The notes beneath the pieces are model-generated. The model made no database searches and was not told where the DNA came from. It worked only from the letters and a program-made list of their open reading frames with translations. Both the position numbers and the translations under genes were made by a program. From an uncultured Clostridia bacterium (GTDB lineage: Bacteria; Bacillota; Clostridia; Oscillospirales; CAG-272), in assembly GCA_947643245.1 (NCBI GenBank), contig CANRVI010000003.1, forward strand, positions 1-41,062: a stretch of 41,062 bases of DNA. Reading direction: 5' to 3'. Positions 9,379 to 14,702 of this stretch are shown here, piece after piece. Within the stretch, counting starts at the first letter, position 1. Every line of letters begins with the position of its first letter.

Positions 9379-10809
9379 TCACCCGTTCAGCTGTGCTTCC
9401 ACCAAACGATCCACCACAGTGGGATTGGCCCTGCCGCCGGAAGCCGCCATAACCTTCCCTACAATCGCTTTTGCAGCAGCCTTCTTGCCTTTTTGATAAT
9501 CCGCCACAGATTTGGGATTCTGCTGGATAGCATCCTGTACCCATTTTAAAATTATTGCCTCGTCGCTTATCTGCGCTAGTCCTTCCCGCTCAACCTTTTC
9601 CGCCACATCAAAATCCGCCTCCCACAGTTCTTTGATCAGTTTTTTTACTGTTGCAGAGTTGATCACGCCATCTCCAGACAATGATGCAAGGGCGGCCATA
9701 CGCTGGGGCAAAATTTTGCAGACGCTTTCTTCCCCGTCTGCGAGGCGCATTACTTCGGACAGCAGCATATTTGCTACAAGCTTGGGATACCCGGTCCCCG
9801 CCGCAGCCCTTTCAAAATAATCTGCCATTGCCATATCTGTAGTAAGTACCTCACCATCATAAGCAGACAAACCGTATTTTTCCATATATTCCTTTTTCCG
9901 CTGATCCGGCAACCGGGGGATCTGGGCCTGCAACTGCGCAATTTTGTCATCCGTCAGACGGATAGGGGGCAGATCCGGATCGGGGAAATACCGATAATCA
10001 TTTGCATTTTCCTTGGTACGCATGGAATAGGTTTTTCCGGTAGCTGCATCAAACCGACGGGTCTCCTGTATAATTTTTTCTCCTGCCTCGATGGCCTCTA
10101 CCTGCCGTTTGTATTCGTATTCGATAGCCTTTCCTATAAACTGAAAGGAATTCAAATTTTTCATCTCCGTACGGGTGCCAAATACCTCCGTACCCTTTTT
10201 GCGCACAGACAAGTTTACATCACACCGCAGCGATCCCTCGTTCATTTTACAATCCGACACACCGGTGTACAAAATAATAGCCCGCAGCTTCTGCAAATAG
10301 GCCTTTGCTTCTTCTGCACTGCGTATATCCGGTTCACTGACAATCTCGATCAACGGCACACCGCAACGATTGCAATCGATCATAGTTCCTTTTTCGTCAT
10401 CGTGCATCAGCTTGCCGGCATCTTCCTCAATATGGATTCGAGTAATGCCGATTCGCTTTGCTCCATCTCCCGTCTCGATATCCAACCACCCATGTTCGCA
10501 GAGGGGAAGATCGTACTGAGAAATTTGATATGCTTTTGGCAGGTCGGGATAAAAATAGTTTTTCCGGTCCTGCTTGGAAAACCGAGCAATGGTGCAGTTT
10601 GTAGCAAGTCCCGCCTTCACCGCATAGTCCACCACCTTGCCATTGAGAACCGGAAGCGTTCCTGGTAGTCCCAGACAAACTGGGCAGGTTTGGGTATTGG
10701 GAGCAGCACCGAAGGTAGTAGGACAAGAGCAAAAAATTTTTGTCTCTGTTTTTAATTCCACATGAACTTCCAGTCCAATCACCATTTCATAATCTTTGAT
10801 CATCTGCAT
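9379..10809 (-). CDS. gatB: Asp-tRNA(Asn)/Glu-tRNA(Gln) amidotransferase subunit B
   Basis: YEMVIGLEVHVELKTETKIFCSCPTTFGAAPNTQTCPVCLGLPGTLPVLN. Confidence 0.97.
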   Translation of the reverse strand: MQMIKDYEMVIGLEVHVELKTETKIFCSCPTTFGAAPNTQTCPVCLGLPGTLPVLNGKVVDYAVKAGLATNCTIARFSKQDRKNYFYPDLPKAYQISQYDLPLCEHGWLDIETGDGAKRIGITRIHIEEDAGKLMHDDEKGTMIDCNRCGVPLIEIVSEPDIRSAEEAKAYLQKLRAIILYTGVSDCKMNEGSLRCDVNLSVRKKGTEVFGTRTEMKNLNSFQFIGKAIEYEYKRQVEAIEAGEKIIQETRRFDAATGKTYSMRTKENANDYRYFPDPDLPPIRLTDDKIAQLQAQIPRLPDQRKKEYMEKYGLSAYDGEVLTTDMAMADYFERAAAGTGYPKLVANMLLSEVMRLADGEESVCKILPQRMAALASLSGDGVINSATVKKLIKELWEADFDVAEKVEREGLAQISDEAIILKWVQDAIQQNPKSVADYQKGKKAAAKAIVGKVMAASGGRANPTVVDRLVEAQLNG

Positions 10810-10812
10810 ACT

Positions 10813-12255
10813 TTATTCTTCCCCCTTTCCCATTTCAAAAGCATATCCAACACGGTACAGCATCGCTTCAGAAAAGGCAGGGCCAATTAGCTGCATGCCT
10901 ACCGGCATGCCTCCTTCTCCCGTTCCACAGGGCATGGACAGCGCCGGAAGCCCGGCGATGTTCACCGGAACACTATAGGCATCTCCCAAGTACATTTCCA
11001 AAGGATCGCTGGTTTTTTCTCCAATTTTATAGGCAACAGTAGGCGCAACCGGAGAAAGAATACAATCACATTTTTCAAAGGCAGCATCAAAATCTGCCCG
11101 TACCAGACTGCGCACCTGCAGCGCTTTTTTATAATACGCATCGTAGTATCCAGAAGACAGGGCAAAGGTTCCCAGCATAATCCGTCGTTTCACCTCCGCA
11201 CCGAATCCTTCGCTGCGACTGTTCTGATACAACGTATCCATATCGGAAAAATCTGCTGCCCGGTATCCATACCGTACCCCATCAAATCGTGCCAGGTTGG
11301 AGGATGCCTCCGCTGAAGAAATAACATAATAAGCGGCTAGGGCATGATCCAAAGAGGGCATTTTCACTTGTACAAGTGCAGCGCCCATTCCTTCTAAGGT
11401 ATCTGCCGCAGCAAGTACCGCTTGTTTTACATCCGTAGAAATACCGTCACCAAAAAATTCTTCCGGCAAACCGATTCGCAGACCGGCAACACCGGCCTGC
11501 AATCCGGCAAGATAATCCTCTACCGGCCTGTCGGCGGATGTTGCGTCCCGCTTATCATATCCGGCAATGGCGGACAACACCAACGCATTGTCTCGCACGT
11601 CTCGGGTAAGAGGGCCAATCTGATCCAAGGAAGAGGCAAAGGCAACCAGTCCATATCGAGAAACTCGCCCGTACGTAGGCTTCATTCCCACCACTCCGCA
11701 GAAAGCCGCCGGCTGACGAATAGAACCGCCAGTATCACTTCCCAAGGCGTAGGCAGCTTCTCCCGCAGCAACTGCAGCAGCAGAGCCGCCGGAGGACCCA
11801 CCCGGCACTCGTGTAGTATCACAGGGATTTTTCGTAATCCCCATAGCGGAATTTTCCGTTGTGGAACCCATAGCAAACTCATCCATGTTCAGTTTACCCA
11901 ACAGTACATATCCCGCGTCCTGCAGCCGCTGAATTACATGTGCGTCATATGGTGGCACATAATCTGCAAGCATTTTTGAAGCGCATGAGGTAGCAATCCC
12001 TTTTGTACACATATTGTCTTTAATGCCGGCCGGAATGCCGGTAAGCGCCGTACCCTCTCCTGCCGCAATCCGCTTATCTGCCGCCTTTGCCTGCTCCAAT
12101 GCATAATCTGCATTTGTAGAAATATAGGCATGAATATCCTGCTCACGCTGAGAAATCGTATTCAGATAAGCCTTTGTCAGTTCCACCGCAGAGTATTCTT
12201 TCTTCTCTAGAGACTTGGCGTGTGCATATATACTTTTATTAATAAGTTCTTTCAT
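10813..12255 (-). CDS. gatA: Asp-tRNA(Asn)/Glu-tRNA(Gln) amidotransferase subunit A
   Basis: Amidase signature GGSSGGSAAAVAAGEAAYALGSDTGGSIRQPAAFCGVVGMKPTYGRVSRYGLVAFASSLDQIGP. Confidence 0.97.
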   Translation of the reverse strand: MKELINKSIYAHAKSLEKKEYSAVELTKAYLNTISQREQDIHAYISTNADYALEQAKAADKRIAAGEGTALTGIPAGIKDNMCTKGIATSCASKMLADYVPPYDAHVIQRLQDAGYVLLGKLNMDEFAMGSTTENSAMGITKNPCDTTRVPGGSSGGSAAAVAAGEAAYALGSDTGGSIRQPAAFCGVVGMKPTYGRVSRYGLVAFASSLDQIGPLTRDVRDNALVLSAIAGYDKRDATSADRPVEDYLAGLQAGVAGLRIGLPEEFFGDGISTDVKQAVLAAADTLEGMGAALVQVKMPSLDHALAAYYVISSAEASSNLARFDGVRYGYRAADFSDMDTLYQNSRSEGFGAEVKRRIMLGTFALSSGYYDAYYKKALQVRSLVRADFDAAFEKCDCILSPVAPTVAYKIGEKTSDPLEMYLGDAYSVPVNIAGLPALSMPCGTGEGGMPVGMQLIGPAFSEAMLYRVGYAFEMGKGEE

Positions 12256-14349: not shown

Positions 14350-14400
14350 TTTAATAATATTGCTCCTCTTTCATATTGTTTTAAATACCCTCAAGGGGCG

Positions 14401-14662
14401 AAAAAAAGTCCTTCGCCCCTGTAAAACAGGGACGAAGGACTAAAATCCTCCGCGGTACCACCCATATAGATCTCAACAGATCCGCTCAAAGATACGTGTA
14501 TATCCTGCAGCTATAACGTGCCGCACACGTCCACGCCTACTTGCATCGCTTTCAGGTGGAGGCTCCAAGCTGTTCTTCACCGCAGCATTCGTACCGCGCT
14601 CGCACCGTCCGCGGCTCTCTTCAACTGCAACTCCGGCTACTCGTCTTTTCACAGCCTTTTAC
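14401..14662 (-). promoter_or_regulatory. T-box riboswitch controlling aspS-gatC/gatA/gatB
   Basis: Minus strand carries the T-box motif GGGTGGTACCGCGG, a terminator GTCCTTCGTCCCTGTTTTACAGGGGCGAAGGACTTTTTTT, and a Stem I with AGAGAG bulge and CCGCG/CGCGG distal helix; candidate specifier GAAC at 14575-14572. Confidence 0.92.
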
Positions 14663-14673
14663 TTATTTGGTTT

Positions 14674-14702
14674 AGTATAGCACGTTTCTTTCTTGTTGTC
14701 AA
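14674..14702 (-). promoter_or_regulatory. SigA-type promoter of the T-box operon
   Basis: TTGACA (14702-14697), 17 nt, TATACT (14679-14674). Confidence 0.85.

Follow-up and report, generated by a model that had tools for sequence, protein, structure and literature searches.

The T-box leader upstream of aspS-gatC, gatA and gatB in an uncultured Clostridia bacterium probably has uncharged tRNA-Asn(GUU) as its effector. It is a transcriptional T-box, and the G in front of its AAC specifier, G(-1), is probably no adaptation of this operon for tRNA-Glu. The leader lies on the minus strand of the window, the whole stretch of 41,062 nucleotides that was analysed.

In the proposed mechanism, the AAC specifier would pair with the anticodon of uncharged tRNA-Asn(GUU). 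The UGGU bulge would pair with the 3' GCCA end of the same tRNA, with one G.U wobble. Uncharged tRNA-Asn would then turn on aspS-gatC, gatA and gatB, the genes for making Asn-tRNA. The analysis establishes the leader, the frame of its specifier and the operon; binding of the tRNA and regulation by this leader we infer from the T-box family. The reading is favoured by the Rfam match and the anatomy of the leader, the canonical AAC, its retention in 71 orthologs, the capping purine, and the presence of GAAC before asnA, asnS and asnB. Counting against tRNA-Asn as the only effector are the wobble-only pairing of UGGU with G73, the enrichment of G(-1), and the precedent of Clostridium acetobutylicum.

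Anatomy of the leader

The leader matches the Rfam T-box family (RF00230) at 14661-14425(-) over model positions 1-219 of 219, with 104.2 bits against a gathering threshold of 93 and an E-value of 4e-22 (cmscan). The Stem I covariance model R1 scores it at 90.6 bits, the window sequence being itself a member of that model.

For the structure of Stem I, 80 loci encoding AspRS-GatC relatives were fetched, and a Stem I alignment (A1) was made of 35 sequences. Changes on both sides are seen in 16 of the 17 pairs of the consensus structure in these 35 sequences, and 92% of its cells are paired, compared with 35-46% in slid controls. This covariation-supported stem contains the S-turn (AGUA/GAA), the specifier loop and the AGAGA motif; the last, in the distal T-loop of Stem I, docks the tRNA elbow (PMC7583486).

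Downstream, a UGGN bulge (here UGGU) is found in an antiterminator that competes with the terminator, whose 5' strand shares approximately 14441-14429 with the 3' strand of the antiterminator. The terminator has a folding energy of -30.9 kcal/mol (z -7.8). The leader is thus a complete and well-formed transcriptional T-box, whose promoter is nearly perfect and whose terminator is strong. The initial annotation had described such a complete architecture on the minus strand, and it is borne out by the Rfam score, 11 of 12 promoter matches, the covariation in Stem I and the 16-bp terminator stem.

Table 1. Features of the T-box leader and of the operon downstream, in window coordinates.
Feature	Position	Strand	Evidence
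Promoter TTGACA-17-TATACT	14674..14702	-	Consensus scan, 11/12 matches, extended -10 TG
T-box leader RNA (RF00230)	14425..14661	-	cmscan, full length
Stem I	14562..14663	-	Covariation in 35 orthologs
Specifier loop 5' strand CGAGTA (loop E / S-turn AGUA)	14638..14643	-	Alignment A1 and cmscan alignment
AGAGA motif (Stem I distal T-loop)	14616..14620	-	Invariant columns in alignment A1
Specifier loop 3' strand GAAGAACA	14571..14578	-	Sequence and alignment A1
Canonical (+0) specifier AAC (Asn)	14572..14574	-	TBDB rule and covarying helix
Overlapping -1 frame GAA (Glu), candidate second specifier	14573..14575	-	Sequence
T-box sequence GGGTGGTACC, bulge UGGU at 14460-14457	14454..14463	-	Sequence, cmscan
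Intrinsic terminator, 16 bp stem and T tract	14407..14441	-	Sequence and folding
aspS-gatC fused gene (AspRS with C-terminal GatC domain), 695 aa	12262..14349	-	Pfam PF00152, PF02938, PF01336, PF02686; NCBIfam aspS
gatA	10813..12255	-	Pfam PF01425
gatB	9379..10809	-	Pfam PF02934, PF02637

Reading frame of the specifier

The helix that flanks the specifier loop (14647-14644 with 14570-14567) shows changes on both sides at all 4 of its pairs, with 95.7% of cells paired. The bases AACA are the last unpaired ones ahead of this covarying helix. According to the TBDB rule, the specifier comprises bases two to four, counted from where the bulge ends (PMC7778990). Since covariation fixes the helix, this rule makes AAC (Asn) the canonical specifier and GAA (Glu) the -1 frame. 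The earlier reading of GAA at 14575-14573 and AAC at 14574-14572, overlapping with a shift of one base, agrees with the sequence, and a check of the frame by alignment, which it had called for, here made with 35 sequences and supported by covariation, places the specifier inside GAAC, on AAC.

In T-boxes, a conserved purine 3' of the codon caps the specifier (PMC7583486). In the window leader A follows AAC, and C follows GAA. Of 144 clostridial Asn T-boxes, 128 have A at the capping position 3' of AAC, and 8 have G. In 71 orthologs of the fused aspS, the T-box keeps AAC in place and the base ahead of it varies (G, A or U). The window leader thus has AAC in the canonical frame, a purine next to it, and an Asn-related gene downstream. 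GAAAAACA is found in orthologs such as L019.

The operon and its genomic context

The gene order and Pfam domains are those of a transamidation operon, as the initial annotation had it, except that aspS and gatC are one fused gene. The GatC domain occupies residues 618-689 of the fused protein (Pfam). Fusions of this type are widespread in related Clostridia; AspRS and GatC form one polypeptide in many of them (L010-L089).

The window comes from a 61%-complete assembly, and gene content was therefore read there and in two genomes of the same genus (97% and 95% complete). In the 97%-complete genome there are genes for a second AspRS, for AsnRS, for GlnRS and for GluRS, the last with a score just under the NCBIfam cut-off. 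Neither asnS nor the second aspS is preceded by any T-box found in this genome. Because GlnRS is present, GatCAB is not needed for Gln-tRNA in the genus. Given AsnRS, GlnRS, GluRS and a second AspRS that no such T-box precedes, the best reading of the operon is a supplementary route that responds to asparagine. It looks like an additional way to Asn-tRNA for which uncharged tRNA-Asn would be the inducer, a situation also described in C. acetobutylicum. The window genome also has a second, unfused AspRS (49% identical).

Other T-boxes occur in the genus. Three same-genus genomes (L002, L135, L140) have one whose specifier seems to be CUC (Leu). Its Stem I lies about 240 bases upstream of a gene resembling a xylose-isomerase-type TIM barrel (a weak Pfam match over 70 aa), which is an unexpected target. 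Two Trp T-boxes with a UGG specifier and a UGGC bulge are found in one genome (L006, L007), and a lipoprotein-like gene follows one of them.

The base before AAC

The Stem I covariance model was applied to the 80 loci and to 388 genomes belonging to the class, and additional loci were retrieved. Specifier loops were read off the model alignments. Downstream genes were assigned by tblastn against references, most of these references being confirmed with NCBIfam; the fused-aspS set was chosen by protein homology. A loose specifier pattern run over the 388 genomes matched about as often as in the control and was discarded.

AAC is preceded by G in 119 of the 144 clostridial Asn T-boxes, by A in 12 and by U in the other 13. 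G(-1) is found in 71/88 T-boxes before aspS/gat, a class in which part of the aspS genes were checked for a gatC behind them, and in 47/55 before asnA, asnS or asnB, where the asnA/asnS T-boxes were found with a model trained on aspS/gat leaders and somewhat favouring G(-1) (Fisher p=0.51). The GAAC overlap is thus not specific to transamidation operons in this comparison. Conservation of GAAC in orthologs, which the initial annotation had proposed to look for, holds for the majority counted above; the 17 of 88 aspS/gat T-boxes that lack G(-1) belong to several aspS-gatC lineages and have A or U there.

G(-1) is also more frequent in Asn T-boxes (119/144) than in T-boxes of other specificities found likewise (31/70), in raw counts that ignore kinship and include the bias of the model. 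A structural or historical cause of this enrichment is as likely as a second effector.

The UGGU bulge and the discriminator base

Five distinct tRNA-Glu(UUC) sequences, drawn from six related genomes with that of the window among them, all have A73. tRNA-Asn(GUU) has G73 in two genomes of the genus, and in 74/74 matches to a pattern requiring an encoded CCA in 36 clostridial genomes. UGGU therefore forms a Watson-Crick pair with A73 of tRNA-Glu, but only a wobble with G73 of tRNA-Asn, and both pairings named in the initial annotation are available in this lineage.

tRNA-Trp generally has G73, and the Trp T-boxes of this family have a UGGC bulge; the U of UGGU is thus not explained by tRNA-Asn alone. 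For Trp, a wobble between UGGN and the discriminator is accepted by TBDB (PMC7778990). UGGU is present in 57/86 aspS/gat T-boxes and in 47/52 of those before asnA, asnS or asnB. The match of UGGU to A73 is the one observation in favour of dual sensing, yet it is equally true of asnA and asnS T-boxes. Judged by these sequence counts, G before AAC is shared by clostridial Asn T-boxes in general, and neither GAAC nor UGGU marks the transamidation operon.

G(-1) and UGGU are associated in the raw counts (odds ratio 5-6; p 0.0006 overall and 0.002 within aspS/gat). Their correlated evolution on the AspRS protein tree, with 80 leaders, is not supported (Pagel LR 1.8, p 0.77), and the raw association was dropped as an argument for dual sensing.

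Most clostridial Asn T-boxes (L010-L317) carry UGGU despite G73 in all tRNA-Asn genes seen. A separate group of aspS T-boxes (L016, L017, L028, L044, L046, L057, L084) has UGGC bulges and GAAUAACAC loops, with U before AAC and one additional base 3' of AAC.

Alternative readings

The leader may instead be a two-codon T-box, on which AAC is read by tRNA-Asn and GAA, shifted one base upstream, by tRNA-Glu, so that uncharged tRNA-Glu would also induce the operon. This is the less probable reading, and somewhat unlikely. In its favour, GAAC is present at 14575-14572 and common among relatives, the leader sits on a transamidation operon, UGGU can pair with A73 of tRNA-Glu and wobble with G73 of tRNA-Asn, and passages of PMC4052509 and PMC7778990 give an experimental precedent in C. 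acetobutylicum. The -1 frame is not sterically odd, since codons with no spacer, and others with two bases on their 3' side, are seen in other T-boxes of the family. However, G(-1) is no richer in gat operons and is missing from several of their lineages, and its association with UGGU loses significance on the tree. GAA is followed by C rather than by a capping purine (the rule of PMC7583486), and the GlnRS of the genus leaves GatCAB unneeded for Gln-tRNA. Dual binding by the window leader is possible. Of the two-tRNA sensor proposed initially, the GAAC overlap on a transamidation operon stands; GAAC as the mark of such a sensor finds no specific backing. Because G(-1) is as common before asparagine genes that have no link to glutamate, GAAC is weak evidence of a dual sensor, and the survey can serve as a control for claims of two-tRNA T-boxes in which an overlapping codon alone is the evidence. 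A broader version, in which Asn T-boxes generally may read tRNA-Glu as a second effector, would fit the prevalence of GAAC and UGGU in leaders of the aspS-gat, asnA and asnS types together with G73 in tRNA-Asn and A73 in tRNA-Glu, and is improbable. If true, it would link the supply of asparagine to the charging of glutamate in operons other than the transamidation operon as well. Orthologous leaders in which the -1 base is naturally G, A or U are numerous and usable for a direct test.

A shift of the reading frame in the other direction is very hard to credit. The innermost pair closing the specifier loop, A14644.G14570, is an A.G mismatch in the genus of the window (L010-L015) and in L089, and A-U or C-G in most relatives. 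Such a mismatch could open the loop by one base on each side, so that another tRNA would be sensed (for instance through ACA, Thr, in the +1 frame). But AAC is in the same register in relatives whose closing position is paired, on which ground the shift was rejected, and the downstream genes are Asp/Asn genes.

Comparison with known systems

The bifunctional AspRS-GatC family NF009460 / PRK12820 of NCBIfam resembles the window protein (P0001) in its domain fusion and matches it over residues 5-660. Because the score of 626 is below the model cut-off of 1379, the window fusion belongs to another group.

Asn T-boxes of RF00230 before clostridial asnA, asnS and asnB have the same Stem I, the same GAAGAACA loop and mostly the same UGGU. 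Unlike the window leader, they control a gene for AsnRS or an asparagine synthetase, and no step there involves glutamyl-tRNA.

For the transamidation operon of C. acetobutylicum, experiments are reported in which the T-box binds tRNA-Asn as well as tRNA-Glu (Saad 2013, as cited in PMC4052509). That operon is described as an Asn-tRNA route induced by uncharged tRNA-Asn in the title of Saad 2012 (cited in PMC4206432). As far as these citing accounts describe it, this T-box likewise lies upstream of genes for AspRS and GatCAB, in a clostridium whose routes to Asn-tRNA are redundant, and has Glu and Asn codons overlapping in its specifier loop. The window differs in its fused aspS-gatC, and dual binding by its leader is hypothetical; the two leaders are likened by description. 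The window leader is thus of a known kind, an Asn T-box, with its nearest precedent in C. acetobutylicum.
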